DNA of 41,525 nt, taken from NCBI RefSeq assembly GCF_002159535.1, contig NZ_NFIU01000016.1, positions 1 through 41,525 of the forward strand. Direction: 5' to 3'. The DNA is from Olsenella sp. An290. Lineage in GTDB: Bacteria; Actinomycetota; Coriobacteriia; Coriobacteriales; Atopobiaceae. This document shows positions 4,646-23,555 of this stretch, in pieces. Positions within the stretch are counted from its first letter, which is position 1. Every line of letters begins with the position of its first letter. A model generated the notes under the pieces. That model saw only the letters and a program-made list of their open reading frames with translations, had not been told where the DNA came from and ran no database searches. The translations under genes and the position numbers were made by a program.

Positions 4646-5086
4646 TTAGGCCCTCCAATCAATCTTGACGGGGTTCTGGGCCGTGTGCGGGTGCTCGGGG
4701 CCAGCGTAGACCTTGAGCTTGGTGCCCTGCTTGCGGCCGAGGGTGGTCTTGGGGAGCATGCCCTTGACGGCGTGCTCGACGACGCGCTCGGGGTGCTTCT
4801 CCATAGCCTCGCGGAAGCTCTCGAACTTGATGCCTCCGAGGTAGCCGGAGTGGCGCCAGTACTGCTTGTGATCGGCCTTGACGCCCGTCAGGACGACCTT
4901 GTCGGCGTTGATGACGACAACGAAGTCACCGGTGTCGGCGTTGGGGGTGAACTGCGGCTTGTTCTTGCCACGAAGAATCATGGCAGCCGTAGTGGCAAGA
5001 CGGCCGAGCGTGGCGCCCTCAGCGTCGATGAGCACCCACTTGCGCTCGACTTCGCCGGCCTTGGCGAACTGAGTCGACTTCTTCAC
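4646..5086 (-). CDS. rplM: 50S ribosomal protein L13
   Basis: L13 is an early-assembly large-subunit protein. The 146-residue product has the family signatures [16 protein letters not shown], the [12 protein letters not shown]-like segment (here [14 protein letters not shown]), and [15 protein letters not shown]. The start codon is GTG at 5086, reading [17 protein letters not shown], with AGGAGG a few bases upstream. It is the first gene of the rplM-rpsI unit. A good -10-like hexamer lies about 100 bp upstream, leaving a leader that could carry autoregulatory structure, though I recognise no known L13 leader fold. Confidence 0.98.
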
Positions 5087-5730: not shown

Positions 5731-8700
5731 CTACTCACGCTCCCTGCGGCGCGCGACCAGGCCCGCGGCGGCAAGTGCCGCACCAGCGAGCGCGATCGGC
5801 GCGACGGCGAGGGCGGCGTCGCCCGTCTCCGGGACGGTGCTTCCGCCGGTGGACGGCTTGCTGCCGCTCGGCTTCTGCGTGTCGTCGCCGGGCTTGGTGG
5901 TGTCGCCAGGCTTCTGGTCGTCGCCAGGCTTCTGGTCGTCACCGCCAGGCTTCTGGTCGTCGCCGGGCTCCTCCGTGACGTCCTCAAGGCCCTCGATGGC
6001 CTCGACGAGCGCCTGGGCGGCGGCGTCAACCTCGGCCTGGGTGGCCTCGGGATCGGCGGCAACGGTCTTGGCGGCCTCGAGCGCGCTTGCGAGCGCGGCC
6101 ACGGACTCCTCGGTCTTGCCGGTCGTGTCGACCGCCTCGGCCTCGGCGATAGCCTTGGCGAGGGCGTACTTGTTGACGACGGGCTGCTCCGGGTCGGCCG
6201 GGTCGAGCGCGGCCTGCGCGGCCTCGAGCGCGGCGAGCGCGGCGTCGATCTGGGCCTGGTCGCCGGAGGTCAGGGCAGCCTTGGCCTTGGCCAGGGCATC
6301 CTGGAGGGCGGCCCAGGACTCGGCGGTGTAGTCATCGCCGTTGAGGATCTCGACCGCGTCGATGGCGGCCTCGAGCTCGGAGGTGTCCGGCTCGGAGGGC
6401 TCGGGCTCGGCAAGACCGTCGTAGGCGGCCTTGAGCTCGTCGTAGGCGGCAGAGATCTGGGCCTCGGTGGCCTCGTCGTTGGCGAGGACCTGCTGCGCGC
6501 CGGAGAGGGCGGCCGTGAAGCGCTCGGCCGTCTCCTGCGTGTAGGCGGAGAGGTCGGTGTCCTTCACCTGGTCGACCAGCTCCTGGAGCTTGGTCTTGTC
6601 GGGCTTCTCCACGGGCGGGATCTCCGTCTTCTTCAGGCCGTCGTAGGCGGTCTGGAGAGCGGCGAGCTTGGCGTTGACGTCGTCCTGCGTGGCGGCGTCG
6701 TCCTCAAGGACGGCCTTGGCGTCGACGAGGGCGTTCTGGAACGGAGTCCAGGTGGCCTCGGTGTAATCCTCGGCCTTGAGGTCGGCGGCCTCGATCGTGT
6801 CAACAAGCTGCTGGAGCGCGGCCTTGTCAACGGTGACCGGGTCCTCGTGCTTGGTGCCGTAGAAGCGCACCTCGGAGGCGCTGCAGTACTGGTCCTGAGC
6901 AGGGCCGCCAGCGTGGTTGACCTTGAACATCACGTACTGCGCGGCCTGCCCCGCAAAGGCGGCCTGGTGCCACTCGGTACGGTCAATCAGGGTCTTACCG
7001 TTGTTGTCATACGTGAACGTACCCAGGCTGACGGCAGAGGAGCCCTCGGTGGGAGCGTAGCCGTTGTCAGCGTACGCCTGGAGGTCCTCAGCGCTCATGG
7101 CGGTGACGATCTCGACCTCGAAGATGTCGCCGTTGGTGCCGTTCTGACGCGGCAGGAACGTGACGTCGGTCAGGTCGTAGGTGCCACCAAGGTCAAAGAT
7201 GACCCACTGCGGCATGTAGACATCGTGCATGTAGTCAGAGTGCCAGTAGCTGGACTCGTCGTAGTCGAGAAGGTTCTCCTTCTCGCCGTCCTCGCCCTCT
7301 TCGACCGTGACCTCGCTGGACGCGCCAACAACCGTGACGGCATCCTTCTTGTCCTCGGTGTTGATGAGCGTGGCCTCGTCGACCGGACGCATCACAAGAG
7401 CATCGATGGCGTCGCGGATGGCCACTGCGGCGGTGGCCACGTCGTTGGCCGTGTAGTCATCGGAGGCGATGAGCGCCTGGCCGGCCGCAACCGCATCAGC
7501 GAGGGCCTGATAGCTGTCCGCCGTATAGGCGGCCTTATCGTAAGCACCGGCCTCCTGGATCGCGGAAACGAGCTCGGAGGTGTCAACGCCCTCCTCGACG
7601 GTCAGCTGGTACTCAGCCGTCACGCTCGGATCGAGCGCGGACTTCACCGTGATGGTAACGGTGCCAGGCTTGTTGCCACGGACGTACCAGACCACGTTGC
7701 CGTCGGCGTCCGTGTTGGACACGACGCTCGCGACAGCGGAGTCGGAGCTCTCAACGGTCACGTACGGATACGCGTCGTCAGCGGTAACCGCCTTGGCATC
7801 AACGCGGGTAAGCTCACCAGCATAGATGGACGTGGCGTTCTCACCCAGCTCGATGCTGTCAACGGTAACGTCGGCGGTCTTGTAGTTGAAGTTGACCTCA
7901 CGCAGCGTGAGCATGCGGTTGGCCGTGTCGGTCTCATTGGGGTTCGTGCTCGCGGTGCCGAGCGAGGTCTTCGGGGTGAGGGCAACCGAGGTCACCTTCT
8001 GGCCCTTGTGAGCCTCGTCGACGGTCAGCGTGAAGACGTCCTGCTGCTCGGCGAAGGAGAACTCCTGCGTCTCGCCGCCCTCAAAGGTGATGACCGCATC
8101 CATGCTCGTCACGGTGCCGTTGCTGCCGTTACGGTTGACAACCTCGACGTTGTCAAGAACGGACGGCTCGGCGAAGGTGAACGTCATGGTGGTGGGAAGC
8201 TTCACGTAGTCGGGAAGGAACCCGTCCTCGGTCCAGTTGGACGAGACGTCCCACTTGAGCTCGAAGTCGTTGCTAGACTCGTCGCCGTTGAAGAGACCGT
8301 CATAGTTCCCCTGCTGGACGATCTTCCCGACGTTGGTGCCGTCATCGGCCGTAAGAATGTCGTTCGTCATGGTGATGCTGGAGAACGCATCCTGGCCATA
8401 CTCGCCAGACTGGGAGGCCGGCGGCTCGGGGAACTCCGGAGCGGTGCCGTCGGACTCGAAGACCTTGGCGTCGCACGCAGGGCCAACGAGCCAACCCGTG
8501 GAGGGAAGCTCCACCGCACCGTCAGCAACAGCCTTCAGCTGGAAGGAGGCAACGACCGCCGTGCCGTTGTAGAGGTCCTTGTCGGCCTCGTTGGCAAGGG
8601 CGATGTTCACCGTCTGGATGCCATCGTCAAAGGTCGTGGTCGAAGTGGTCTCATCGTTCATGCCCGCAAGGTAGGGGCTCGTGGTGATGCTGTCGCCGAC

Positions 8701-11700
8701 CAGCTCGAACATGCTGCTGTCAAAGTGGATGACCGCGCCGAGGGCGTTTGCGTTGGCAACGTCGCTCGCGTACAGGTCAACCGTGATGACATCGCCGGTC
8801 TTGACCGCAGAGGCGCTCGGGATGACCGCAAGGCTGCCGTCAACCGCACCGGTCTTGGTCGTGCCGCCGTTCACCTTGGAAAGGGTGAAGGACATGTCGT
8901 ACACGTCGTAGACACCGTTGTTGTTGATGTCGAAGGCCTTGCTGCCCACGTGCGTCTGGAACTCGTCGGCGTAGGGAGCGCGGTTCTCACGACCAAGGGC
9001 GTTGCCCTCAAGGTGCTGGACGTCCTCGGTGCCCACCGTGGTGGGAGAGCTCGGGAGCGAGCCAACCTCAAAGGCCAGCGAACCGTCGGTCTTGTAGAGC
9101 GCGAGCTCACCGGCAGAGAAGTGCCCGCTGTTGGTGTCAATCGGGGTGAGGCGCAGGTAGCGAGCATAGCCGGTCAGCTCGACCGTCTTGGAGGCAAGGC
9201 CCTCGGCGTTGTTGCCGGTGGCCCACTTGGAGCTCTCCTGCTGGGTGACCCAGTTGACGCCGTCAAGGCTCGTCTCGACCTTCATGGAGATGACGCTGCC
9301 GTTGCCGCCGTTGTCCTGGCGCGGGGTGTAGACAAACTTGTCGAGCGCGTATGCCTGGCCATAGTCAATGGTCATCGGCATGCCCTCTTCCACGCCGTTG
9401 GAGGAGTGGAACATGGTGTTGAGGTCGTGGTCGAACGCGTTGTCGATCGCGCCCCAGTCCTCGCCACCGTCATAGGACACGCTCACGGGCGCGGGCACGT
9501 TGCGCCACGGGTCCTCGAGGGACGTAGCGCTGAGCTCGTCGCTCCAGTCAGAGTAGCCCTCGGCGTTGCGCGCACGGACCTTGTAGGTGTGCGTGCTGTT
9601 GTACGTGAGGTCGGTGTGCGTGTACTCGGTCGCATCGCCCACGTTGAAGAGCGTGCCGTCCACGAGGAGCTCGTAGCTCTCGGCGCCCTCGACCTCATCC
9701 CAGGTGAGCGTGATGCTCGTCGGGGTCATCTGGTCCTCGGGAGCCGCGAGGTTGGCCGGCGCGGACAGGTTCGGGTTGGGAGCGTCGCTCGGCAGGTTGC
9801 CCTCGTTGGCGAAGCCGTTGACGGTCAGCGTCTGGGCAGCGCTGTTGACGTCGGTCTTGGCGAACTTCACGTACAGCTTCGGGGTCGTGGTGATCTCGGT
9901 GCTGCTGAAAGCCTCGCCCTTGATGGCCTCGTCGTCAGAGTAGGCGTTGGAGTTGAGGTTGGGGGACTCATCGTAGAAGTAGATGGCCCGGCCAGCCTCG
10001 GGCGTCGCGGCGTCGAAGGCCTCCTTGGAGTCAACCTTCGTCTGCGCGAGCTCCTGGTCGCCGTTCTTGGCAACGACGCTCTTCGGCTCCGCGGACACGT
10101 TCACCACAAAGGTGGTGGTGCGGTTGGAGTCATAGCCGTCGTAGGTGCCCTCGGATGCGTTGGCCGTAAAGGTGGCCGTGTCGCCCTCGACCGAGGAGGT
10201 GAACGTCGTGGAGACGTTGCTGCCGTAGCTGATGTTGTCCTCGGCACCGTACTCGGGATCGGAGTTGTCGATGTTGTTCTCGATGTAGGAGCCCGTGTCC
10301 TCGAAGAGGGTGTACTCGTTCTCGCCGTCAACCGCGAAGAACTCGACGATACGCTTGGTGCGATCGGTGCCCTCGGGGTTGGTGTCGGTAATCGGCTCGG
10401 GGTTGTTGTTGGCCTCGTACATCGGGATGATGGCGTTGGCCTTCACGAACACCGGGAGCTTCCAGACCGGAGCGTCGAAGTTGTTGAGGACCTGACCACC
10501 GCGGTACTGCTCGCCCGTCCAGTAGTCGATCCAGATGGTGTCCGAGCCGCCCGGGAGATAGATGTTGTCGCGGACGTCGTTGCCATCGCCCAGGCCGCCG
10601 TTGGCGGAATCGCCGTCGGTGTTCTGGTAGATGGGCGCCACGAGGAAGTCCTCGCCCATGGTGAACTCGTACTGGGTGCTCGTGCTCGCGGCGTACGCGG
10701 AGTCATCGGAGAGCATGATCGCGCGCACGAACGGCATGCCGGTGTCACCGTTGCCCGTGTCGATGTTGGACGCGGACGCGGCGGTGGTGTAGATGTACGG
10801 CATGAGCTGAGACTTCAGCTTGAGGTACATGCGGTTGATGCCCGTGTAGGGATCGCCGTAGGTGTAGGGCATCTTGGCGTAGGAGCCCCAGCCGTCCATG
10901 TCGAGCATCAGCGGAACGAAGGTCTTCCACTGGTAGTCGCGCGTGGCGACGACGGAGTGACCACCGAAGATGCCGTCCATGTCGGAGCCCATGTTGGGGT
11001 TGCCCGCAAGGCCCTGGCCGATGAAGGTCGGAATCTGGAAGCGGATGTACTCCCAGTTACCGCCCGTCTGGTCGCCGGTCCAGATGCCCGCGAAGCGCTG
11101 GGAGCCCGCCCAACCGTCGAGGGAGACGATGAGCGGACGCTCGCCGGCCTCAGTGGTCACGATGTCATAGGCGGTCTTCGTGCCGTTGAGGCCGAAGGAG
11201 TAGCCCGGGCCGACCCACGCAACGTCCGTCTTGAGCATGGTGACGCCACCCTCGGAGACCTCTGCGTCAAAGTCGCGGAGCGTCTGCCAGAGCGTGTTGG
11301 CGTTGGAGTCGGGCTCGAGGTTGGACTGGGTCCAGAGGCCCGTGGCGACACCACGCTCGTCAGCGTAGTCAGCGAACTCCCTGAGGTTCTGGACGTTGGC
11401 CGCGATGGCATCGAGGCGCTCCTGGGAGCTCGTGCCGTCGGGGTTGACGCCGCCGGTCATGTTGTAGCCGTTCTGGCCATAGCCGCAACCGTAGCCGTCG
11501 TTGGGCAGGAAGTAGCCCAGCGGCATGTCATAGTCCTGGTACTGGTCAAGCTTGCCGCGAGCGGAGAACTTGACGTCGTACTTGACGCCCTCGGGGACCT
11601 TCTCGGTGGAGACCGTGGGGCCGTAGCCGTTCAGGGTCTCGACGGTCTCGCCCGCGCTCGCCGCAGCGCCCGTGCCGCCCTTCTCATACGTGACGGAGTC

Positions 11701-12717
11701 AGGCGTGCCGCCCGAGGCGGAGTGGCCGTAGATGGGCCAGTCGTTATAGCCGCTCAGCGCCTCGTCGGACCAGGAGTCGCGGTTATAGGCGTTGTAGTGG
11801 CCAAGGTAGAAGGCGTAATCCGGGAGCAGTGCCGGGTCGCCCGTCACCTTGTAGTAGTCCTGAAGCAGGTCCTGGGCCGTGGAGGAGATGCCCTCGGCGT
11901 CGGACGTGAAGATGTACGCGTCGTACTTGTTGTCGCTGTGCGTAGCGCTCACGTAGTCCTGCTCGCTGCCGAAGTTATAGGAGCCCTCGGCAAAGGTGTT
12001 GCGCAGGACGCCGTAGCCATCGCTCGACCAGTAGAACGGGTTCGGGGAGGCAACGCCACCGTCGACCCAGTTGTTGGTGTTGGAGATGGCGATGGTGCTA
12101 CCGGTGTGAATGAAGCGGCCGTTCTGGGTGCCGCCGCCGAAGAAGTTCTCGGCCTCGCCCTTGTCGAGCGACTGCACGGTGGAGTTGCCGTTGAAGCTCA
12201 GCGGCGAGGTCTCCTCCATGACCACGTCATCGCCATCGGTCACGGTCATGAGGGCCGTGTCCTTGTCCAGGGAGATCGTGGTGTCGCCCGAGGTGATGGT
12301 GTACGCCTCGCCGGCGTCCTCAACCGTCACGGCAGGGTGCGAGTACTTGTCGGAATCGTCCGGCTGCGCCTGGATACGGGCCACGTGATCTTTGGAGCGC
12401 GGCGTCGCGTACTCCGCGAACTCGCCCGTAGGATCGACGACGTAGTGGAAGATGCCGTCTTCGAGGAACGTGATGCGGCCCTCGATGGTCTCATCGCCCG
12501 ACTTGAAGCTGATGACGGCCTCGTTGGCCGAGTCGCCCTCCGCAACGCTCTCGACGCTGCTCAGGGAGCCCTGGTAGTTCGCGGGAGCCGCAAACGCCTG
12601 GACCGGCAGGGACGTCGCGAAGAGCGTCGCCGTCATGATGCCACCGGCGATACGACGAGCCTTGGACCACACCTCCCCTCTTTCGTTCTTCCGGGGTTGG
12701 ACATGGCGCTTACTCAT
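5731..12717 (-). CDS. Secreted, sortase-anchored multidomain GH31 glycosidase (possible alpha-N-acetylgalactosaminidase)
   Basis: This 2328-residue protein has a long signal peptide (about 1-44). A GH31 catalytic region (about 60-870) carries nucleophile motif MLKTDVAW (Asp498) and acid/base motif WTGDQ (Asp549). Then come a fibronectin III-like domain (985-1066), an F5/8C (CBM32-like) domain (1075-1210), a dockerin-like half repeat DINNNGVYD (1263), a cohesin-like domain (1295-1425), another carbohydrate-binding-like module (1460-1613) and a Big2-like domain (1615-1708). A FIVAR repeat (1712-1776), a second F5/8C domain (1780-1957) and four more FIVAR repeats (1963-2246) follow. The tail has a KPGDDQ-rich linker, the sorting motif VPETG (2295), a hydrophobic helix and RRRERE. 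GH31 enzymes hydrolyse alpha-glycosides. The spacing of the two Asp residues and the module set recall GH31 mucin alpha-GalNAcases, but this substrate is inference. ATG 12717 has AAGGTGG upstream. Confidence 0.9.
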   Translation of the reverse strand: MSKRHVQPRKNERGEVWSKARRIAGGIMTATLFATSLPVQAFAAPANYQGSLSSVESVAEGDSANEAVISFKSGDETIEGRITFLEDGIFHYVVDPTGEFAEYATPRSKDHVARIQAQPDDSDKYSHPAVTVEDAGEAYTITSGDTTISLDKDTALMTVTDGDDVVMEETSPLSFNGNSTVQSLDKGEAENFFGGGTQNGRFIHTGSTIAISNTNNWVDGGVASPNPFYWSSDGYGVLRNTFAEGSYNFGSEQDYVSATHSDNKYDAYIFTSDAEGISSTAQDLLQDYYKVTGDPALLPDYAFYLGHYNAYNRDSWSDEALSGYNDWPIYGHSASGGTPDSVTYEKGGTGAAASAGETVETLNGYGPTVSTEKVPEGVKYDVKFSARGKLDQYQDYDMPLGYFLPNDGYGCGYGQNGYNMTGGVNPDGTSSQERLDAIAANVQNLREFADYADERGVATGLWTQSNLEPDSNANTLWQTLRDFDAEVSEGGVTMLKTDVAWVGPGYSFGLNGTKTAYDIVTTEAGERPLIVSLDGWAGSQRFAGIWTGDQTGGNWEYIRFQIPTFIGQGLAGNPNMGSDMDGIFGGHSVVATRDYQWKTFVPLMLDMDGWGSYAKMPYTYGDPYTGINRMYLKLKSQLMPYIYTTAASASNIDTGNGDTGMPFVRAIMLSDDSAYAASTSTQYEFTMGEDFLVAPIYQNTDGDSANGGLGDGNDVRDNIYLPGGSDTIWIDYWTGEQYRGGQVLNNFDAPVWKLPVFVKANAIIPMYEANNNPEPITDTNPEGTDRTKRIVEFFAVDGENEYTLFEDTGSYIENNIDNSDPEYGAEDNISYGSNVSTTFTSSVEGDTATFTANASEGTYDGYDSNRTTTFVVNVSAEPKSVVAKNGDQELAQTKVDSKEAFDAATPEAGRAIYFYDESPNLNSNAYSDDEAIKGEAFSSTEITTTPKLYVKFAKTDVNSAAQTLTVNGFANEGNLPSDAPNPNLSAPANLAAPEDQMTPTSITLTWDEVEGAESYELLVDGTLFNVGDATEYTHTDLTYNSTHTYKVRARNAEGYSDWSDELSATSLEDPWRNVPAPVSVSYDGGEDWGAIDNAFDHDLNTMFHSSNGVEEGMPMTIDYGQAYALDKFVYTPRQDNGGNGSVISMKVETSLDGVNWVTQQESSKWATGNNAEGLASKTVELTGYARYLRLTPIDTNSGHFSAGELALYKTDGSLAFEVGSLPSSPTTVGTEDVQHLEGNALGRENRAPYADEFQTHVGSKAFDINNNGVYDVYDMSFTLSKVNGGTTKTGAVDGSLAVIPSASAVKTGDVITVDLYASDVANANALGAVIHFDSSMFELVGDSITTSPYLAGMNDETTSTTTFDDGIQTVNIALANEADKDLYNGTAVVASFQLKAVADGAVELPSTGWLVGPACDAKVFESDGTAPEFPEPPASQSGEYGQDAFSSITMTNDILTADDGTNVGKIVQQGNYDGLFNGDESSNDFELKWDVSSNWTEDGFLPDYVKLPTTMTFTFAEPSVLDNVEVVNRNGSNGTVTSMDAVITFEGGETQEFSFAEQQDVFTLTVDEAHKGQKVTSVALTPKTSLGTASTNPNETDTANRMLTLREVNFNYKTADVTVDSIELGENATSIYAGELTRVDAKAVTADDAYPYVTVESSDSAVASVVSNTDADGNVVWYVRGNKPGTVTITVKSALDPSVTAEYQLTVEEGVDTSELVSAIQEAGAYDKAAYTADSYQALADAVAAGQALIASDDYTANDVATAAVAIRDAIDALVMRPVDEATLINTEDKKDAVTVVGASSEVTVEEGEDGEKENLLDYDESSYWHSDYMHDVYMPQWVIFDLGGTYDLTDVTFLPRQNGTNGDIFEVEIVTAMSAEDLQAYADNGYAPTEGSSAVSLGTFTYDNNGKTLIDRTEWHQAAFAGQAAQYVMFKVNHAGGPAQDQYCSASEVRFYGTKHEDPVTVDKAALQQLVDTIEAADLKAEDYTEATWTPFQNALVDAKAVLEDDAATQDDVNAKLAALQTAYDGLKKTEIPPVEKPDKTKLQELVDQVKDTDLSAYTQETAERFTAALSGAQQVLANDEATEAQISAAYDELKAAYDGLAEPEPSEPDTSELEAAIDAVEILNGDDYTAESWAALQDALAKAKAALTSGDQAQIDAALAALEAAQAALDPADPEQPVVNKYALAKAIAEAEAVDTTGKTEESVAALASALEAAKTVAADPEATQAEVDAAAQALVEAIEGLEDVTEEPGDDQKPGGDDQKPGDDQKPGDTTKPGDDTQKPSGSKPSTGGSTVPETGDAALAVAPIALAGAALAAAGLVARRRERE
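5905..5961. repeat. 18-bp tandem repeats coding the KPGDDQ wall linker
   Basis: Units of 18 bp at 5905-5922, 5923-5940 and (after 3 bp) 5944-5961 are identical, with degenerate units on either side. They encode the Pro/Gly/Asp-rich linker before the sorting signal. Such in-frame repeats can vary in copy number between strains. Confidence 0.85.
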
Positions 12718-12772
12718 ACGCCCACCTTTCTCTCGTGTCCTTCCTTCCCAATACGTTCAGAGCGAATTGACA

Positions 12773-12796
12773 ACTGGTATTAGGTTCAATACCTAT
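12773..12796 (-). promoter_or_regulatory. Candidate operator A overlapping the GH31 promoter
   Basis: Half-sites ACTGGTAT and ATACCTAT face each other across 8 bp, about 60 bp upstream of the GH31 start. On the minus strand the element overlaps a possible -10 (TAATAC, 12777-12782), which has TTGTCT 19 bp upstream. A regulator bound here would block transcription. The motif is seen; the regulator is unknown and not encoded in the window. Confidence 0.45.
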
Positions 12797-12918
12797 AACC
12801 GAGACAATTCACCCATGGTTTAGTCATTATGCGCAAAGTTCCGCTCGCCGTCGCCCACAGTCACGCTAGCGGTAGCAAACGGCCCCGCAGACGGACAAAA
12901 ATAGCCCTTGAGCTGGTA

Positions 12919-12944
12919 ATTGGTATCTACAATCAAATACAAGT
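12919..12944 (-). promoter_or_regulatory. Candidate operator B (degenerate)
   Basis: ATTGGTAT and ATACAAGT each match the half-sites of the 13001-13023 palindrome at 7 of 8 positions and face each other across 10 bp. The variable spacing weakens the case for a single dimer site. Confidence 0.35.
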
Positions 12945-12983
12945 TGGGCCCCGGAGGCCTCCTGTCGGCCCCGGGGCCCCAAC
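12943..12983 (-). terminator. Probable terminator of the cytoplasmic GH31 gene
   Basis: A long GC-rich stem with one gap/mismatch runs from GTTGGG at 12943 to CCCAAC at 12983. On the minus strand it is followed by the T-rich TTGTATTTG. It lies about 65 nt past the stop of the downstream GH31 paralogue. Confidence 0.65.
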
Positions 12984-13000
12984 GTCATCGCAACACGTTA

Positions 13001-13023
13001 ACTGGTATCTCTTCCATACCAGT
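13001..13023. promoter_or_regulatory. Candidate operator C, perfect palindrome ACTGGTAT-N7-ATACCAGT
   Basis: The two 8-bp arms are perfectly complementary around a 7-bp spacer. It lies in the short gap between the stop of the cytoplasmic GH31 gene and its terminator. The half-site resembles those of GntR-family amino-sugar regulators (DasR/NagR-type sites share ACTGGT or ATTGGTAT halves), but their arms abut rather than being spaced, so the resemblance is only suggestive. Confidence 0.5.
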
Positions 13024-13046
13024 ACATAAATCATGCACAAACAGCA

Positions 13047-15824
13047 TCAGACCTGATCGAGGTTCTCCTCGGCAAGCCCCCAGAGCGTGAGCTCCTGCGC
13101 GTGACGGCTCACGTCCGCACGAGCAAAGCGCACGGTCACGCGCGGCGCCCCGTGCGCGGCGGCCACCATCTCGGCGAGCACCCGCTCCTCCGCGGGCGCG
13201 TACGTCTCCACGGCGGGCGCCCCCTCGAAGAGATAGGCGACCTCCCCCGGCGCGGGCTCGGCCGCGAGCAGCCCCGCACGGTCGGCGACCTCGCGGACCA
13301 GGAGCTCCCGCCCGCCGCAGCGCGCCGCCACGCCCTCGGGGCGCGACGTCACGCGCACGGTAAACGTCGTCTGCCGGAAGGGGTCGTAGCCCTCGTAGGA
13401 GCCGCGCGACGGCTCGGCGAGAAGGACCGCGCGGCCGCCCTCGACCACGCACCGGAAGTCCGTGAGCACCCGGCCGCCGTAGTCGATCTCGTCCACCACG
13501 CCATAGCCCGGCTCCTCGTGGGCGCGGCTCACCCCCGTGCGGCCGTCGTCCTCGAAGAGCGTGTAGCGGGTCTCCGTGCGCCCGGGACGGCCGAGCGCCG
13601 GGTAGAACTCGACCACGCGGCGCGTGCGGTCGAGCCCGGCCGGGTTCTTCTCGCCCGGGGGAAGCGGGTTGTTGTGAGGCTCGTAGCAGGGGATGATCGC
13701 GCCGGCGCGCACGAAGAGCGGGAGCTTCCAGAGCGGCGCGTCATAGCCGTTGAGCGTCTGGCCGCCCCGGTGCGCCTCCCCCGTGAGGTAGTCGAACCAG
13801 AGGTCGTCCGCGCCTCCCGGGAAGAAGATGCCGTCGCGGACGTCGTTGCCGCGCCCGTCCGCGCGCACGCTGCGATAGACGGGCGCCACGAGCAGCGCGT
13901 CGCCCAGGGTGAACTGGTAGGTCGCGGCCTCGGCGGGGACGTCGGGCGCGCCGGAGAGCAGAAGCGAGCGCACGGGCGGCAGCCACGTGTCGCCGTTGCC
14001 CCACTCGATGCCCGACGCCGCGGCGGCGCAGGTGTAGGCATACGGCATGAGGCGGCTCTTGAGCTTGAGGTACATCCGACAGATGCCGGTGTGCGGGTCG
14101 CCGTTGGCGTAGGGCAGCTTGGGCAGCGACCCCCACCCGTCCATGTCGAGCATGAGGGGCGTGAGGGCCTTCCACTGGAAGTCGCGCGTGGCCACCACCG
14201 CGCTGCCGCCAAAGATGCCGTCCATGTCCGACGCCACGTTGGGGTTGCCGGACATCCCCTGCCCCAGGTAGGTGGGGACGTGCATGCGGATGTACTCCCA
14301 GTCGTCGCCGTTCTGGTCCCCGGACCAGACGGCGGCAAAGCGCTGGGTGCCGGCCCAGCCGTCCAGGGTCAGCACGAAGGGGCGCCGGCCGGTCCGCGCC
14401 GCCAGGATCTCGTAGCCCTGCTTGGTGGCGTCGAGGCCGAAGGAGTAGCCCTCCCCCACCCACTCCTCGTCGGTCTTGAGGGCCGTGATGCCCGCGCGAG
14501 AAACCTCGGCGGCAAAGTCGCGCAGGTTCTGCCAGGTGATGTCGGGGCTGGGGTCGGGCGTGATCTGCGACTGGGCCCAAAGGCCCGCCTCCACGCCGCG
14601 CTCGTTGGCGTAGGCGGTGAAGGCGGCGAGGTTCTCCACGTTGGTGGCAATCGCCTCGAGGCGCTCGGGCGAGCTCGCGCCGTCCGGCCCCACGCCGCCC
14701 GTCATCTCGTAGCCGTTGTGGCCGTAGCCGGCGCCGTAGCCGTCATTGGGGAGCATCCAGCCGAGCGGCATGTCGTGGGCGGCGTGCTCGTCGATGACGG
14801 CGCGCGCCGAGTAGGCGTAGGGGGTCCGTCCGCGGTACTTCTCGCCCGAGGCGCGCAGCACCTCGTCGGGACCGTTCAGGGACTCGGCGTCGTGGCCCTC
14901 GGGCACCACGTAGCCGCGGCGGCGCCCCAGCTCGTAGCGCACCCGGCCCGGCGCGCCCGCGGGCGCGGACCCCAGGACCGTCCAGGCCTGGGCGCCCCGC
15001 TCGGGCTCCTCCGACCAGGCGTCGCGGTTGTACGCGTTGAGGTGGCCCAGGTAGAAGGCGTACTCGGGAAGCAGCACGGGGGCGCCCGTCACCGCAAAGT
15101 ACGCGGCAAGGACGCTCTGCGCCACCCGGGGAAGGCCCGCCGCCGGGTCGTCGGCGATCAGGAGGTACGCGTCGAGGCAGGGGTCCTCGTGGGTGGCCGT
15201 CACGGCCGCGGCCGCGCTGCCAAAGTCGTAGGTCCCCGGGGCGAAGGTGTTTCTTATGATGCCGTAGCCCGCGCTCGACCAGAAGAACGGGCTCGGCGAG
15301 GCAACGCCGCCGTCGCCCCACTGGTTGCTGTTGGTGGGCGTGGTCACCACGCGCACGACCGCACCCTCGTGGCTCGCGCGCCCGTTCTGGGTGCCGCCGC
15401 CGAAGAAGCGCTCGCGCGCGCCCATGGCAAGCCGCTGCGAGGACGCGGTCGGGCCCAGCTCGGCGGGCGCCGCCTCGCGCAGGGCCACGTGGCCGCGGCG
15501 ACGGACCGTGAGGAGGCCGGAGGGGCCCTCAAGCAGCACCTCGGTCAAGCCCACCCGGATCGCAAGCGCGCCCTCGCGCGCCTCGAGGGTGGGCCGGGGG
15601 TGCGCGTAGCGCGCGGACTCGTCCGGCTGGGCGGGGATGCGCGCCGCGTGCGCGGGGCTGTTGGGACGGGCGTAGGGGGCAAACGCACCCGTGGGGTCGA
15701 GGGTGTAGCGGATGATGCCCTCCTCGAGGAAGGCCAGGCGCGCGGGGACGGGCACGCCGCCCGGCGCGAGCGTCAGGTCGACCTGGTAGGGACGGCCAGG
15801 ATGGGGGCAAGCGTCATATATCAC
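13047..15824 (-). CDS. Cytoplasmic GH31 family glycoside hydrolase, paralogue of the anchored enzyme
   Basis: This 925-residue GH31 enzyme aligns along its length with the catalytic part of the neighbouring 2328-residue protein. Shared blocks include FGGGTQNGR, GGVASP-PF-WSS, LPNDGYG, the nucleophile ALKTDEEW (Asp452) and the acid/base VWSGDQ (Asp503). It lacks a signal peptide, binding modules, FIVAR repeats and sorting signal, so it should act inside the cell. The start is taken as GTG 15824 because AGGAG sits 6 nt upstream; a longer frame from a TTG at 15878 has no comparable site. It ends shortly after the beta-sandwich region at LWGLAEENLDQV. It is visibly richer in G/C third positions than the anchored copy, arguing against a very recent duplication. 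Likely substrates are imported alpha-linked sugars or glycopeptides. It is transcribed after the patatin gene, 60 bp away. Confidence 0.9.
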   Translation of the reverse strand: MIYDACPHPGRPYQVDLTLAPGGVPVPARLAFLEEGIIRYTLDPTGAFAPYARPNSPAHAARIPAQPDESARYAHPRPTLEAREGALAIRVGLTEVLLEGPSGLLTVRRRGHVALREAAPAELGPTASSQRLAMGARERFFGGGTQNGRASHEGAVVRVVTTPTNSNQWGDGGVASPSPFFWSSAGYGIIRNTFAPGTYDFGSAAAAVTATHEDPCLDAYLLIADDPAAGLPRVAQSVLAAYFAVTGAPVLLPEYAFYLGHLNAYNRDAWSEEPERGAQAWTVLGSAPAGAPGRVRYELGRRRGYVVPEGHDAESLNGPDEVLRASGEKYRGRTPYAYSARAVIDEHAAHDMPLGWMLPNDGYGAGYGHNGYEMTGGVGPDGASSPERLEAIATNVENLAAFTAYANERGVEAGLWAQSQITPDPSPDITWQNLRDFAAEVSRAGITALKTDEEWVGEGYSFGLDATKQGYEILAARTGRRPFVLTLDGWAGTQRFAAVWSGDQNGDDWEYIRMHVPTYLGQGMSGNPNVASDMDGIFGGSAVVATRDFQWKALTPLMLDMDGWGSLPKLPYANGDPHTGICRMYLKLKSRLMPYAYTCAAAASGIEWGNGDTWLPPVRSLLLSGAPDVPAEAATYQFTLGDALLVAPVYRSVRADGRGNDVRDGIFFPGGADDLWFDYLTGEAHRGGQTLNGYDAPLWKLPLFVRAGAIIPCYEPHNNPLPPGEKNPAGLDRTRRVVEFYPALGRPGRTETRYTLFEDDGRTGVSRAHEEPGYGVVDEIDYGGRVLTDFRCVVEGGRAVLLAEPSRGSYEGYDPFRQTTFTVRVTSRPEGVAARCGGRELLVREVADRAGLLAAEPAPGEVAYLFEGAPAVETYAPAEERVLAEMVAAAHGAPRVTVRFARADVSRHAQELTLWGLAEENLDQV

Positions 15825-15884: not shown

Positions 15885-16796
15885 CTACTCCCCACCGGGA
15901 CAGAGGAAGGCGTCAATCTCGGCGAGGCGGGCCTCGGTCTGGCGGCGCGCGGCCACGTAGAGCGAGAGGAGCGCCTCGCCGTCGCGCGTGGTGGAGCCCA
16001 CGCTAACCGGCTCCTCCGGGGCGATCACCAGGCAGGCGCCCTCCAGCTCGAGCTCCCAGAGCCGCTCGCGCTGGGCGTTGTAGCGCTCCGCGCGCGTGGC
16101 GAGGGCCTGCCGGTAGTAGGGGTAGCGGTCGTAGCGGTGAGACCTCAGCGCAAGGCCCTCTCCCCCGCCGGGCTGCTTCTGGTAGGTGCGGTCCTGCGTG
16201 AGGACCACGAGCGCGCGGGACGCCGGGACGTGGCCCTCCACCTCACGAGCGCCGGGCAGGCCCAGGGCCACCTCAAAGGGGATGGAGTCCGTGGTGCCGC
16301 CGTCAAGGTAGCGGTGGCCCTCGATCTCCACAAGCTCGGAGACGGCCGGCAGCGAGGCCGAGGCGCGCACCTTGTCAATGTCCTCGGGGAAGCTCCGCAC
16401 GCGCAGGTAGGCGGGCGTGCCAAAGGTCACGTCCGAGGCCACGACCCAAAGCGGCAGCGGGCTCTCGTTGAAGGTCTCGACGTCGCAGGGGTCAAGGCGG
16501 TTCTGGACCTCGTCGTACATGAAGTCGGCGCCCGCCATGTTGCCCGTCGTGGCAAACGACCAGAGGGACATGAAGCGGCGGTCGTCCCGGAAGGCGAGCA
16601 TGTCGCGCATGGTGCGGCCGATCTGGCGGGAGCGGAAGTTCGAGGCGTTGACGGCGCCCGCAGAGACGCCCCACGCGCTCGAGAACCCCGTGAGGCCGCG
16701 CTCCTGCAAGACGTCGAGCACGCCCGCCGTGAACATGCCCCTGAACCCGCCGCCCTCAAGGACGAGCGCGGGCGCCATGCCCCCCTTGGTCTCCAT
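15885..16796 (-). CDS. Patatin-like phospholipase family protein
   Basis: The 303-residue product is a predicted cytoplasmic serine lipase/acyl hydrolase of the RssA/YjjU-like bacterial patatin group. Visible motifs are the oxyanion loop LEGGGFRGMF near residue 11, the nucleophile elbow GVSAGA (G-x-S-x-G) and the dyad Asp in YLDGGTTDS. The C-terminal half carries a DUF-like region with YRQALATRAERYN. ATG 16796 (METKGGMAPALVLEGGG) has AGGGG upstream; the open frame extends back into ssrA, but that part is a shadow. It precedes the cytoplasmic GH31 gene in the same direction and may be co-transcribed, though no functional link is evident. Confidence 0.92.
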   Translation of the reverse strand: METKGGMAPALVLEGGGFRGMFTAGVLDVLQERGLTGFSSAWGVSAGAVNASNFRSRQIGRTMRDMLAFRDDRRFMSLWSFATTGNMAGADFMYDEVQNRLDPCDVETFNESPLPLWVVASDVTFGTPAYLRVRSFPEDIDKVRASASLPAVSELVEIEGHRYLDGGTTDSIPFEVALGLPGAREVEGHVPASRALVVLTQDRTYQKQPGGGEGLALRSHRYDRYPYYRQALATRAERYNAQRERLWELELEGACLVIAPEEPVSVGSTTRDGEALLSLYVAARRQTEARLAEIDAFLCPGGE

Positions 16797-16922
16797 CCGT
16801 CCCCTCTCGCTTGCCGCTTGCGCACCAGACTTTACACCACATCGCGCGGGCGAGAAGAACATGGGCAAGAAGGGCGCGTGCGAGAGAGCCGCGGCGGCGC
16901 GCCGGGGCGGGCGCCGGGCGTC

Positions 16923-17029: not shown

Positions 17030-17398
17030 TGGTGGAGGTGCGGAGAATCGAACTCCGGTCCAAAGCAGGTCCCTGACAGGTGTCTCCAGGCTCAGCCACC
17101 GGTTGGGTCTCAGACGCCGCGCACCCGGTTGCCCGCGCTTGGCGCCCCAGTCGGTTCGGTCTTTTCGGGCGGCATACCGACTACGTCCGCCCGAGCATCT
17201 CCCTCAGATGACACCGCACCGGCAACGGGAGCGATCACCGGATTGGCGCGCCGCTATCTAATTAAGCGGCGAGAGCCAGCTGGGGCCCAAAAGAGTTGTT
17301 GTCGTCAATTCAATTTGACGGTACCCCTGTTTAACGTGGCGAGGAGACCACGGCCTGCTGCCCATCTCAGACCCACCCTGTCGAAACCAGTCACCCCC
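17030..17398 (-). ncRNA. ssrA: Transfer-messenger RNA (tmRNA)
   Basis: tmRNA rescues ribosomes stalled on mRNAs lacking a stop codon and tags the nascent peptide for proteolysis. The 5' end GGGGGTGACTGGTTTCGACA and the 3' end with TTCGATTCTCCGCACC...ACCA are the conserved halves of the tRNA-like domain, and the 7-bp acceptor stem pairs with one G-U. The CCA is encoded at 17032-17030. The tag frame ends DDNNSFGPQLALAA followed by TAA at 17264-17262; the ALAA end is the normal protease signal. In that frame a TGA stands one codon (ATT) before the first GAC, so the resume codon must be ATT or later. Length is 369 nt. Confidence 0.96.
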
Positions 17399-17640: not shown

Positions 17641-19254
17641 ATGTCCAAGGCGTTTGAAATCTCCAGGAGGCGCTTCGTCGAGGCCATGGGCGCCGCGAGC
17701 GTCCTCGGCGTCGTGGGCCTCAGCGGCTGCACCGGCGCCAAGCGCGCGAGCGACACCGGCGAGGAGGGTCAGGGCGGCAACGCCGACACCATCACGTTTG
17801 CGCAGGGCGCCGACCCGCGCGGTCTCGATCCCGCCTACGTCGACGACGGCGAGTCCGCCAAGATCATGTGCAACATCTACGACACGCTGCTGCGCTACGA
17901 CACCCAGACCTGCGACGTCGTCCCCGGCCTCGCTGACATGCCTGACATCTCCGAGGACGGCCTGACCTACACCTTCAAGCTACACGAGGGCGTCAAGTTC
18001 CACGACGGCACCGACTGCAACGCCGCGGCGGTCAAGGCCTCCATCGAGCGCCAGCTCGAGCCCAGCCGCACCGAGGACATGCCCTACGCGTCCTTCGTCT
18101 TTGGCGCCGAGGACACCGGCGCCGGCGTCGCCTCCGTCGAGGCCCCCGACGACACCACGCTCGTCATCACGCTGCGCGCGGCCTCCACGCCCTTCATCAA
18201 GAACATGGCGATGGCGCTGGCCGCCCCGGTCGTGGCCCCCTCCGCCTTCGAGGCCGGCACCTCCAACGAGAGCCCCGTCGGCTCCGGCCCCTACAAGTTC
18301 GTCTCCTGGTCCAAGGGCGAGAACGTCGTTCTCGAGGCCAACGAGGACTACTGGGACGCCGAGCGCATGCCCCAGACCAAAAACGTCATCTTCCGCTTCA
18401 TCGCCGAGAACTCGAGCCGCGTGACCGCCCTCAACAACGGCGAGGTCGACATCATCGACGGCATCGACGCCTCCGTGGTGCCCACCATCACCGACGCGGG
18501 CAACGAGCTGTTCGAAGAGGACGGCATGAACATCAACTACATGGCGTTCCGCAACGACGAGGGCCAGTTCACCGACGTCGCCGCGCGCAAGGCCTTCTGC
18601 CAGGCCGTGAACGTCGAGGAGATGGTCAAGAGCCTCTACGGCGACTACGCGGGCGTGGCCACCTCCGTCATGCCGCTGTGGATGGCCCCCTATGACGAGG
18701 ACATCCAGCAGACCGCCTACGACCCCGAGGCCGCCAAGGCCGCCTTTGCCGAGCTCGGCATCACGAGCTGCACCATGCTCGCCTACACCAACCCGCGCCC
18801 CTACAACTCCATCGGCGGCCAGGCGCTCGCCGAGGCCATCCAGGGCTACCTGGCCGACGCCGGCGTGGACATGGAGATCGTCTCCTACGACTGGACCACG
18901 TACCAGACCAAGGTCGAGACCGACAAGTTCGACGTCTGCCTCTACGGCTGGGTGGGCGACAACGGCGACCCGGACAACTTCATGAACCTGCTTGCCGACG
19001 AGAACGTCTCCATGAACGTGGGCCGCTTCCGCAACGACGAGTACAACGCCCTCATCCAGCAGGGCCTCGCCACCGAGGAGGGCGCCGAGCGCGACGAGAT
19101 CTACAAGCAGTGCGAGCAGATGGTCGCCGAGCAGATGCCGTGGATGGTCATCAGCCACGCCAAGAACCTCGCGGGCTACAGCCCCAAGGTCCAGGGCTTC
19201 TACTACCACCCCACGGGCGTCGTGCACCTGGAGGGCGTCACCAAGTCCGCCTAG
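17641..19254 (+). CDS. ABC transporter substrate-binding lipoprotein, family 5 (peptide/oligosaccharide type)
   Basis: This 537-residue extracytoplasmic binding protein of the DppA/OppA family captures substrate for the four transporter genes that follow. The N-terminus ISRRRFVEAMG is a twin-arginine (Tat) motif and LSGC ends in the lipobox cysteine (Cys30), so it should be exported folded and lipid-anchored. A Ser/Gly/Glu-rich tether precedes the domain starting TITFAQGADPRGLDPAYV. The family signature YTFKLHEGVKFHDG occurs near residue 115, and SPVGSGPYKF near 215. ATG 17641 is preceded by GGGAGGA. Family members bind di- or oligopeptides, and some bind nickel or oligosaccharides, so substrate cannot be read from sequence. 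The cytoplasmic GH31 nearby makes glycopeptide an attractive guess. Confidence 0.93.
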   Translation: MSKAFEISRRRFVEAMGAASVLGVVGLSGCTGAKRASDTGEEGQGGNADTITFAQGADPRGLDPAYVDDGESAKIMCNIYDTLLRYDTQTCDVVPGLADMPDISEDGLTYTFKLHEGVKFHDGTDCNAAAVKASIERQLEPSRTEDMPYASFVFGAEDTGAGVASVEAPDDTTLVITLRAASTPFIKNMAMALAAPVVAPSAFEAGTSNESPVGSGPYKFVSWSKGENVVLEANEDYWDAERMPQTKNVIFRFIAENSSRVTALNNGEVDIIDGIDASVVPTITDAGNELFEEDGMNINYMAFRNDEGQFTDVAARKAFCQAVNVEEMVKSLYGDYAGVATSVMPLWMAPYDEDIQQTAYDPEAAKAAFAELGITSCTMLAYTNPRPYNSIGGQALAEAIQGYLADAGVDMEIVSYDWTTYQTKVETDKFDVCLYGWVGDNGDPDNFMNLLADENVSMNVGRFRNDEYNALIQQGLATEEGAERDEIYKQCEQMVAEQMPWMVISHAKNLAGYSPKVQGFYYHPTGVVHLEGVTKSA

Positions 19255-19286
19255 CGCCCCCCCCCGCCCGACCCCAGCGACTCCCC

Positions 19287-19315
19287 GAGACGGGCCGGCC
19301 CCTCCGGCCCGTCTC
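19287..19315 (+). other. Hairpin between the binding protein and permease genes
   Basis: A perfect 12-bp stem (19287-19298 with 19304-19315) with a 5-nt loop and no U run lies in the 123-bp gap, followed by a smaller hairpin (GCGAGAAG / CTTCTCGC). Structures here often protect the upstream message, keeping the binding protein in excess over the permease. Confidence 0.6.
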
Positions 19316-19377
19316 CGTCTGGCGAGAAGTACCTGGTCCTTCTCGCGCCCGACCCCTAAGAGAGAGGAGGAGGCCAC

Positions 19378-20394
19378 GTGCTGAAATACGTGCTCAAGCG
19401 CATTCTTCTGGCGATTCCCGTGCTGCTGGGCGTCTCGATCATCGTCTTTCTGATCATGCGCGTCTTCTCGGCCGACCCGGCGCCCGTCGTGCTGGGCCAG
19501 CACGCCACGGCCGAGGCCATGGAGGCCTGGCGTGACGCGAACGGCCTCAACGACCCCATCATCGTCCAGTACTTCACCTTCCTCACGGGGGCGCTCACGG
19601 GCAACCTCGGCGAGAGCTACTACACGCACACGCCCGTGACCGAGGAGCTGCTCTCGCGCTTTCCGGCGACCGTCGAGCTGGCGCTCGTGGCCATTGTGAT
19701 CGCGGCCATCGTTGGCGTGGCGCTGGGCGTCGTCTCCGCAACGCACAAGAACACCCCCATCGACGGCCTCTCCACGATCTTGGCCCTCGTGGGCGTCTCC
19801 ATGCCGATCTTCTGGCTGGGCGTCCTGCTCATCATCCTGTTTGCGGGCGTCCTCCACGTGCTGCCGAGCTCCGGACGCATCGACCCGCTCCTGCAGCCGG
19901 TGGGCGGCACCGGCTTCTACCTCCTGGACACCCTGCTCATGGGCGACCTCGAGGCCTTTGCCGACGCGGCGGCCCACATCGTGCTGCCGGCCGTGGCTCT
20001 CTCCATGTACTCGATGGCCGTCATCACGCGCATGACGCGCTCGAGCATGCTCGAGACGCTCAACGAGGACTACGTCCGCACAGCCCGCGCCAAGGGCCTG
20101 AAGAAGCGTCGCGTGGACATCCATCATGCGCTGCGCAACGCCATGCTGCCGGTGACCACGGTCATCGGCCTGCAGCTGGGGAGCCTGCTCGGCGGCGCCA
20201 TGCTCACCGAGACCGTCTTTGCCTGGCCGGGCATCGGCAAGTACGTGGTCGACTCCATCCTCAAGTCGGACTTTCCGGTGGTGCAGGGCGCGGTCCTGCT
20301 CATCGGCGCGATCTTCATCGTCATCAACCTGGTGGTCGACGTGATCTACGCCTACCTTGACCCGCGCATCACCTACGCCAAGGAAGAGGGGTGA
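19378..20394 (+). CDS. dppB: ABC transporter permease, DppB/OppB family
   Basis: The 338-residue inner-membrane permease begins [28 protein letters not shown], the typical first helix and N-terminus of DppB-type subunits. Several hydrophobic segments follow, and the cytoplasmic EAA loop carries [16 protein letters not shown], which contacts the ATPases. The C-terminus ends [14 protein letters not shown], also characteristic. GTG is the start codon, with GGAGGAGG at good spacing. It would pair with the DppC-type permease encoded next, whose start lies just after this stop. Symbol by family; substrate unproven. Confidence 0.93.
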
Positions 20395-20399
20395 TCGGC

Positions 20400-21311
20400 A
20401 TGGCAGAGGCAGTTGCCCAGACCGGCGGTGCCCCCGAGGAGCGCCCGGCCGAGAAGACCGAGTCGCTGTGGAAGGACGTCTGGTACTCGCTGCGCCAGAA
20501 CGTGCCCGCCATGGTGAGCCTCGCGATCATTGTCCTTCTCGCCCTGGTGGCCATCATCACCTTTGTTGCGCCGCAGGTGCTCCCGTACGACCCCTACCAG
20601 CAGGACCTCTCGGCCTCCTTCCAGGGGCCGAGCGCCGCGCACTGGTTTGGCACCGACCAGCAGGGCCGCGACATCTTCTGCCGCATCCTCATCGGCAGCC
20701 AGATCTCGCTCACCGTGGGCCTGCTCTCGGTGGCCATCTCGCTCACGATCGGCGTCACCCTGGGCGCGCTCGCCGGCTACAAGGGCGGCGTGGTGGACAC
20801 CGTCATCATGCGCTTCATGGACATGATGCTCGCCATCCCGTCGATCCTTCTGGCCATCGCCTTCATGGCGGCGCTCGGGCGCGGCATCGACAAGGCGATC
20901 ATCGCCATCGGCTTTGTCTCCATCCCGGAGTACGCGCGCATCGTGCGCAGCCAGGTGCTCGCCGTCAAGCAGTCCGACTACGTGGCCGCCGCGCGCGTCA
21001 TCGGGGACTCCGACGCGGTCATCATCTTCCGTCACGTGCTCCCCAACGTGATGCCCTCGATCATCGTGCGCGCGACGCTCGGCATCTCGAGCGCCATCCT
21101 CGACGCCGCCGCACTCGGCTTTCTGGGCCTCGGCGTCCAACCGCCCGCCGCGGAGTGGGGCGACATGCTCGGGCGCGGGCGCAACTACATCTTTGCGGCG
21201 CCCTACGCGATGATCTTCCCCGGCCTCGCCATCACCGTCACCGTCCTGGCGTTCAACCTGCTCGGCGACGGCATCCGCGACGCCTTCGACCCCAAGAGCA
21301 GGAACAGGTGA
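20400..21311 (+). CDS. dppC: ABC transporter permease, DppC/OppC family
   Basis: The 303-residue second permease has the N-terminal OppC-type segment ([24 protein letters not shown]), the [24 protein letters not shown] motif region split around residue 90, and an EAA loop [14 protein letters not shown]. Six hydrophobic stretches fit the family. ATG 20400 is chosen over an overlapping GTG at 20391 because AGGGG lies 8 nt upstream, leaving a 5-nt gap after the dppB stop. It forms the membrane channel with the DppB-like partner. Confidence 0.93.
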
Positions 21312-21316
21312 TTGAC

Positions 21317-22453
<1,137 letters not shown>

Positions 22454-22454
22454 G

Positions 22455-23555
<1,101 letters not shown>

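Follow-up and report, generated by a model that had tools for sequence, protein, structure and literature searches.

A signal-less, probably cytoplasmic branch of GH31_18-like enzymes that shares a chromosomal slot with surface-type relatives in Olsenella sp. An290 and its congeners

Introduction

The α-N-acetylgalactosaminidase of Enterococcus faecalis, a family 31 glycoside hydrolase (GH31) that CAZy places in GH31_18 and whose PDB name is LPXTG-motif anchored protein, is represented by four PDB entries (6m76, 6m77, 7f7q and 7f7r), and the available part of PMC13096917 states that GH31_18 has so far been reported with activity on α-linked N-acetylgalactosamine (α-GalNAc) only. The same text describes an exported GH31 relative that is active on para-nitrophenyl-α-GalNAc and inactive on Tn antigen, gastric mucin and fetuin; another exported relative is inactive on Tn antigen and active on desialylated mucin, according to the portion of PMC11992087 at hand. 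In the multimodular GH31 protein of Clostridium perfringens, all three family 32 carbohydrate-binding modules (CBM32) bind GalNAc, as given in an excerpt of PMC5291390. Here, we describe a locus from Olsenella sp. An290 (RefSeq assembly GCF_002159535.1, contig NZ_NFIU01000016.1, positions 1 to 41,525; this whole stretch of 41,525 nt is referred to as the window), in which two adjacent GH31 genes lie on the same strand: LONG, predicted to encode a surface-anchored enzyme, and SHORT, which encodes a protein without an export signal.

The processing of GalNAc conjugates inside the cell is, in itself, a known idea. The GH129 enzyme NagBb of Bifidobacterium bifidum is an intracellular α-N-acetylgalactosaminidase for imported GalNAc-Ser/Thr (PMC6109692 and PMC8106489, both in excerpt), and the former excerpt has cytoplasmic NagBb handling imported Tn in bifidobacteria via a transporter that was unidentified. 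It also outlines the gnb operon of Lactobacillus casei for galacto-N-biose, with a mannose-class phosphotransferase system (PTS), the GH35 enzyme GnbG, a GalNAc-6-phosphate deacetylase and an isomerizing deaminase; moreover, L. casei imports a glyco-amino acid via a major facilitator superfamily permease (PMC6960285, in the part available), and, for Bacteroides thetaiotaomicron, the processing of core-1 and Tn glycopeptides has been proposed to follow uptake into the periplasm (PMC11992087, same portion). In the literature searched, which covered few subscription papers, we found no signal-less GH31_18 enzyme derived from a relocated surface enzyme.

A preliminary description of the locus treated the two genes as a paired system for host glycans, with one activity in two compartments. 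We consider the signal-less, probably cytoplasmic branch to be of more interest than the pairing. On the reading that we favour, with a probability of roughly 0.55, SHORT would be a surface O-glycan enzyme that has been relocated to the cytoplasm, where it would act on small imported GalNAc conjugates, and LONG would be a surface α-N-acetylgalactosaminidase.

Results

LONG (2328 amino acids; 12717 to 5731) is encoded on the minus strand, and SHORT (925 amino acids from its best start, GTG 15824, with AGGAG ahead of the start codon) occupies 13047–15824 on the same strand, which confirms the arrangement first described; the proteins are 51% identical. For the whole catalytic part of both, the best PDB match is the E. 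faecalis enzyme (6m76/7f7q/7f7r), with E values of 5.6e-176 for SHORT and 2.7e-214 for LONG, and the next GH31 enzymes follow at 4.1e-26 and 1.6e-23, respectively; by these values, neither protein belongs to the GH31 α-glucosidase or α-xylosidase subfamilies. A fold model of SHORT (mean pLDDT 85.2, pTM 0.91) retrieves the four E. faecalis entries as its top four matches, with query TM values of 0.79–0.80, and among the best 50 rows other GH31 enzymes reach at most 0.65. Pfam matches to the N-terminal, barrel and C-terminal domains of GH31 occur in each protein and, as both have GH31 catalytic domains, neither is a GH129 enzyme. Both are thus placed with the GH31_18 α-N-acetylgalactosaminidase group, by sequence similarity rather than by CAZy's official subfamily assignment, and the kinship suggested at the outset holds for each.

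The KTD and GDQ motifs, previously noted as common to the pair, are kept in both proteins. By alignment with the E. faecalis enzyme, the nucleophile and the acid/base of LONG are Asp498 (KTDVAW; 11224–11226) and Asp549 (GDQTGG; 11071–11073), and those of SHORT, in the numbering of a 943-residue frame, are Asp470 (KTDEEW; 14463–14471 together with the clade-specific Glu471 and Glu472 that follow it) and Asp521 (GDQNGDD; 14316–14318), all on the minus strand. The latter two correspond to Asp452 and Asp503 in the 925-residue numbering and are invariant in 39 rows, and the nucleophile mutants 7f7q and 7f7r align there. Indeed, the nucleophile and the acid/base aspartates are invariant in all rows counted, and 148 alignment columns are invariant over 45 rows; these column counts omit nine distant rows from Streptomyces, Nocardioides and Isoptericola. 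The spacing of 51 residues between the two aspartates, reported earlier, is correct for both proteins, but we rejected it as a diagnostic of GH31 α-N-acetylgalactosaminidases, given the 53 residues of the E. faecalis enzyme.

LONG (5731–12717) has the features of a sortase-anchored protein and is predicted to be a surface-anchored, GH31_18-like α-N-acetylgalactosaminidase. Its signal peptide (approximately residues 1–43, AFA-AP, boundary set by eye; 12589–12717) precedes the catalytic region (approximately residues 49–975; 9793–12573; Pfam and PDB matches), an fn3 domain (985–1064) with the first F5/8 type C/CBM32-like module (1083–1198; together 9124–9765; Pfam and 4lpl), a second module (1457–1582; 7972–8349; match to 4uap), a third, CBM32-like module (1808–1954; 6856–7296; matches to 4lks/4lqr/4p5y), a region of FIVAR repeats (5968–6828, outer limit set by eye; four Pfam stretches, the best at 1964–2028) and a sorting signal composed of the LPXTG-like VPETG, a hydrophobic stretch and the positive tail RRRERE (5734–5835), again all on the minus strand. 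The solved modules 4lpl, 4uap and 4lks are named family 31/fibronectin type III protein in the PDB, and we take them to be those of the C. perfringens GH31 protein. The three modules of LONG can be likened to the three CBM32 modules of that protein, in a comparison confined to regions outside the catalytic domains; LONG ends in FIVAR repeats and VPETG. At approximately residues 1262–1414 (window ~8476–8934), FDINNNGVYDVYDMSFTLSKV is followed by a segment that is cohesin-like by eye, with no Pfam match there.

In the Pfam comparison, the fn3 domain, the F5/8 type C domain and the four FIVAR stretches are confined to LONG, and SHORT has neither signal nor anchor, so the preliminary description was right to give these features to one protein only. 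The SHORT frame opens just two codons ahead of its earliest possible start, TTG 15878; therefore, no in-frame export signal can hide upstream. No signal peptide was found in any of the 16 SHORT proteins by eye or by a hydrophobicity scan, and in 12 of the 16 rows a candidate start codon lies 38–42 residues ahead of the conserved DPxG motif; in all seven genus LONG rows tested, a hydrophobic stretch (KD15 >1.5) ends 52–64 residues before this motif. Two SHORT rows are moderately hydrophobic, L006 (1.50) and L013 (1.57), neither being signal-like by eye: one of the windows is upstream of the likely start and the other is in an apparent insert in the first strand. Additionally, the catalytic region holds 6–15 cysteines in all 16 SHORT rows versus none in 21 of 26 LONG rows (maximum 3), and its content of Asn, Ser and Thr drops from 22.9% in LONG to 12.8% in SHORT. 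We take this gain of cysteine and loss of Asn, Ser and Thr to reflect long residence in the cytoplasm. SHORT, then, probably works inside the cell, and the two compartments originally proposed are consistent with the frame limit, the inspection by eye, the hydrophobicity scan and the cysteine content.

A survey of 31 genomes of the genus (E at most 1e-50) found SHORT alone in 15, intact LONG alone in four (G019, G023 with two copies, G025 and G026), an interrupted LONG in one (G005) and neither form in 10; among the 21 genomes with any copy, the present one (G000) alone has both. A neighbourhood search with the window genes gave 21 stretches from 20 other genomes of the genus, several of them short or ending at contig ends. 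In 13 of the 15 SHORT-only genomes, SHORT is flanked by a patatin gene and rplM, the patatin side alone being visible in G016 and G022, and intact LONG occupies the same slot in G019, G023 and G026, with the patatin side alone visible in G025. Of nine genomes with a patatin match and no GH31 gene, five have patatin and rplM no more than ~1.5 kb apart, and in four rplM falls outside the short flank examined. SHORT and LONG thus act as alternatives at one slot, and their tandem arrangement in the window departs from this rule. In the window, the slot is bounded upstream by the patatin-like gene (15885–16850, minus strand, start not fixed) and downstream by rplM (4646–5086, minus strand), followed by glmM and glmS.

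At the family level, 21 of 140 genomes match (E at most 1e-60), all from this genus, 1 of 35 genera; at the order level, 40 of 395 genomes match in 2 of 123 genera; and a draw of 396 genomes from the phylum gave 7 matches in the same two genera of 236. In the second genus, 19 of 43 genomes match, with frames above 1500 amino acids except for the interrupted G555; the SHORT form was found outside the first genus in none of the family, order and phylum searches. A pattern-based scan of named genomes gave 11 relatives, from Aerococcaceae, Streptococcus, Streptomyces, Nocardioides and Isoptericola; relatives close to the window may be missing from it. Two genomes of the second genus have close same-strand pairs of LONG-type genes with frames >2000 amino acids (G343:C12 82290–92306 and G549:C10 216847–226300). 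In G005, LONG is interrupted by ~6.4 kb (L056 5221–11662; G005:C1 ~97.2–103.7 kb) holding an IS3-like transposase, a Crp-like regulator and a heavy-metal P-type ATPase, as named from reading the translations; the patatin gene of this genome is ~80 kb away, which places the copy away from the usual slot. In five SHORT rows (G006, G021, G012, G018 and G017), in-frame TGA or TAG codons were considered as recoding; this was rejected, the match having overrun the gene ends.

A 54-row tree of the catalytic domains unites the 16 SHORT proteins in a single clade (stem 0.74) nested in the surface enzymes, its neighbours being the LONG proteins of G023 and G026 (support 87), and LONG of the present genome groups with those of G025 and G019, apart from the SHORT clade. 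A tree of 39 rows agrees (SHORT stem 0.79, support 92), and in it a single clade of 20 LONG rows is rejected by the AU test (p 0.011), albeit modestly and for a group chosen after the tree had been seen. Caution is due with both trees, as letter composition varies between rows. The larger omits the interrupted copies of G005 (L022; L024 was never included) and G555 (L075 and L075b) and the partial repeats L001b and L002b; the smaller also omits the nine distant rows and six near-identical g40 rows; the alignment used for structure (A1) omits the nine distant rows, five near-identical g40 rows and the interrupted copies. A recent tandem duplication as the origin of the pair was rejected on the 51% identity and the different clades. 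A multi-gene tree of the flanks, which kept 18 of 20 rows (G022 and G025 were dropped for too little sequence), puts G000 among SHORT genomes, and a patatin tree of 30 rows puts it beside LONG and GH31-less genomes with weak support (79/90); the two trees thus suggest different histories for the slot. Either LONG was gained beside SHORT or an old pair has been kept here only.

The SHORT clade is further set apart by residues beside both catalytic aspartates. Directly after the nucleophile, at positions 435–436 of the E. faecalis chain, all 16 SHORT rows have Glu-Glu and all 29 others Val-Ala; taken as a group trait, which is our own observation rather than a published definition, Val-Ala is present in LONG and absent from SHORT. 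In the acid/base loop, Asp is typical of SHORT at two positions, 489 (15 of 16 rows versus 0 of 29 others) and 492 (15 of 16 versus 2 of 29). The substitutions N209S/C, Y212F, Y349H and F498M also distinguish the clade, Ser at 209 being seen in one non-SHORT row. The ratio of non-synonymous to synonymous substitution (dN/dS) is 0.20–0.39 for seven SHORT pairs, from which we conclude that the gene is maintained. From the fixed acidic residues, SHORT would be expected to prefer aglycones that carry a positive charge, for instance on the free amino group of a glyco-amino acid.

GH101 (PF12905) was detected in 5 of the 31 genomes, namely G000, G019, G023, G025 and G026, which are exactly those with intact LONG, and in none of the 15 SHORT-only or 10 GH31-less genomes or in G005; this link (5/5 versus 0/26) spans approximately three lineages on the patatin tree and is subject to the same kinship limit as that of the GH35-PTS locus below. 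The GH101 frame of G000 has, by eye, a signal peptide and a VPETG anchor. AgaS-family genes occur in 30 of the 31 genomes at E <1e-50, all scoring under the curated cut-off. In G000, the order at the AgaS locus is PfkB/LacC-like, GH35 β-galactosidase, PTS IIB, IIC, IID and IIA, GntR, AgaS-like, NagA and a BNR/CBM32 protein; by eye, the GH35 enzyme is without a signal peptide and the BNR/CBM32 protein has one. This locus resembles the gnb operon of L. casei, although its PTS and AgaS models score under the curated NCBIfam cut-offs and its substrate is a prediction. Looking around each AgaS gene only, we found the full GH35-PTS-AgaS-NagA locus in 12 of 16 SHORT genomes, a contig end cutting it in three more (G009, G010 and G018). 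The GH35-PTS type was also seen in three of the four LONG-only genomes (partly, at a contig edge, in G019; cut in G026) and was absent from the AgaS locus of G005; of the 10 GH31-less genomes, seven have a divergent PTS without GH35 and G020 is without a strong AgaS match. After correction for kinship, the association with SHORT is suggestive only. The BNR-repeat (sialidase-like) protein that adjoins the locus (L130 12023–15487; G000:C1), with CBM32-like and List_Bact repeats, was also matched in G023 and G026, and in none of the SHORT-only stretches in view. A search of the 31 genomes for GH129 (PF11308) gave 0 matches, as did its control, so absence is not shown.

The 329-bp region between the two genes (12718–13046, minus strand) holds four of the five TGGTAT/ATACCA half-sites in the window, against a mean of 0.16 in shuffled sequence, and none of 2000 shuffles reached four. 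It contains the operator-like palindromes GGTAT-N7-ATACC (13004–13020) and GGTAT-N8-ATACC (12776–12793), the only two matches to GGTAT-N7/8-ATACC in the 2.15-Mb genome, for which a control pattern gave 0 matches; a wider regulon was accordingly rejected, as far as the exact pattern goes. Half-sites occur within 700 bp upstream of the catalytic domain at 15 of 18 other LONG loci, a count that carries no chance estimate, and by the same test none of these 18 has the full palindrome. SHORT trails the patatin gene by ~60 nt. From this arrangement, LONG seems to have its own control and SHORT to follow the patatin gene.

Other features of the surroundings are given here for completeness. A transfer-messenger RNA (tmRNA) gene lies near the slot (17030–17398, minus strand); as integration often occurs at such genes, its presence may be relevant to the variable content near the slot. 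Past the patatin and tmRNA genes are those of an oligopeptide/dipeptide (Opp/Dpp) ATP-binding cassette transporter (17641–23555, plus strand), which was rejected as a partner of SHORT: elsewhere, it is beside the patatin gene in G025 only, which lacks SHORT. Open frames of 1978 and 1386 amino acids on the opposite strand are judged to be by-products of the 68% G+C content.

Discussion

From the family, the missing export signal, the shared slot, the descent, the fixed substitutions and the patterns of co-occurrence, we infer a location, an activity, a substrate, an import route and a role for the acidic residues. Outside the cell, LONG, held by GalNAc-binding-type modules and its sortase anchor, would cut peptide-linked GalNAc from host O-glycoproteins and strip core O-glycans alongside the surface-anchored GH101. 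SHORT would have lost the signal peptide, the binding modules and the anchor, entered the cytoplasm and become fixed in part of the genus at the same slot. There, it would remove α-GalNAc from imported GalNAc-Ser/Thr or, alternatively, from core-1 glyco-amino acids or short glycopeptides once the cytoplasmic GH35 enzyme has removed galactose, and the Glu-Glu beside the nucleophile and the Asp in the acid/base loop would suit a positively charged aglycone. SHORT shares the catalytic motifs of the E. faecalis enzyme but has KTDEEW where the latter and LONG have KTDVAW, and it is devoid of the export signal and anchor; in its task it would probably work like NagBb, albeit from a different family.

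Several observations weigh against this proposal. The activities of both proteins are read from their sequences. The window's own SHORT has Asn at position 489, with Asp at 491 and 492, and the SHORT model is poor at residues 454–463, so that it defines only loosely where the Glu-Glu pair lies with respect to the aglycone. Moreover, PDB entry 7f7r is titled as the E. faecalis nucleophile mutant in complex with Tn antigen; as this is a Val-Ala enzyme, Glu-Glu is not required to bind such a ligand. G022 has SHORT without GH35-PTS at its AgaS locus, G015 and G030 (two of the 10 GH31-less genomes) have the GH35-PTS locus without any GH31 gene, and on the patatin tree the association between GH35-PTS and SHORT reduces to three independent pairs (median p 0.25). 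We identified no importer of glyco-amino acids; elsewhere, the Opp/Dpp genes close to the slot were seen in G025 only. Free GalNAc in the cytoplasm would, in addition, require a kinase.

A bolder form of the proposal is that SHORT stands at the head of a functionally new branch of GH31_18, in which a surface enzyme for mucin was re-tooled into a cytoplasmic glyco-amino-acid hydrolase whose acidic residues grip the free ammonium group of GalNAc-α-Ser/Thr. The 7f7r complex weakens this form, which we hold only tentatively and would sooner doubt than adopt. The same complex favours a simpler account, in which SHORT is a plain cytoplasmic α-N-acetylgalactosaminidase with the activity of LONG unchanged and the acidic residues arose by neutral drift once the enzyme had moved: if a Val-Ala enzyme can be solved with Tn antigen, the change may be unnecessary, and the catalytic residues and many other columns (148 over 45 rows) are kept. 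Drift, however, sits uneasily with Glu-Glu fixed in 16 of 16 rows against Val-Ala in 29 of 29 beside the nucleophile, at the dN/dS values observed, and an unchanged activity is a poor fit to small cytoplasmic substrates when two exported relatives are inactive on Tn antigen (PMC13096917 and PMC11992087, in the portions available); we consider this account unlikely.

Alternatively, SHORT may have abandoned host O-glycans and switched to another substrate, such as a glycoside of galactosamine or another amino sugar, or a GalNAc compound made by the cell itself. The long stem of the clade (0.74–0.79), the new acidic residues, the changes N209S/C, Y212F, Y349H and F498M, and the failure to find GH101 in the 15 SHORT-only genomes would all be accommodated by such a switch, but it runs counter to the exclusive report of α-GalNAc activity in GH31_18 (PMC13096917, in part) and to the GalNAc-type PTS/AgaS/NagA locus in most SHORT genomes, and it, too, appears improbable. 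That SHORT leaves the cell by non-classical export and acts outside like LONG is very improbable indeed: we found no point in its support, and across 16 proteins the cysteine gain, the loss of a surface-type composition and the lack of any signal peptide all speak against it.

For the preliminary description, the outcome is mixed: the sequence observations and the family call were right, but the pair is not conserved as a system. Of the 21 genomes that carry a copy of either form, one has both; the two are not recent duplicates; LONG has its own palindrome-bearing upstream region; and GH101 accompanies LONG and went undetected in the SHORT-only genomes. Likewise, one activity in two places is unproven, in view of the fixed changes in SHORT beside both catalytic residues.

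The locus offers a natural case of a secreted carbohydrate enzyme apparently turned cytoplasmic, with both forms at one slot in related species, and it warns that not every GH31_18 gene signals extracellular mucin degradation. If SHORT cuts GalNAc-Ser/Thr, KTDEEW would mark scavengers of mucin glyco-amino acids rather than mucin degraders, and the enzyme would do the job of the bifidobacterial GH129 by a second route, of independent origin. The SHORT-only genomes, which gave no GH101 match, would then live on small fragments made by others, and Olsenella sp. An290, with both forms, would combine primary degradation at the surface with scavenging.

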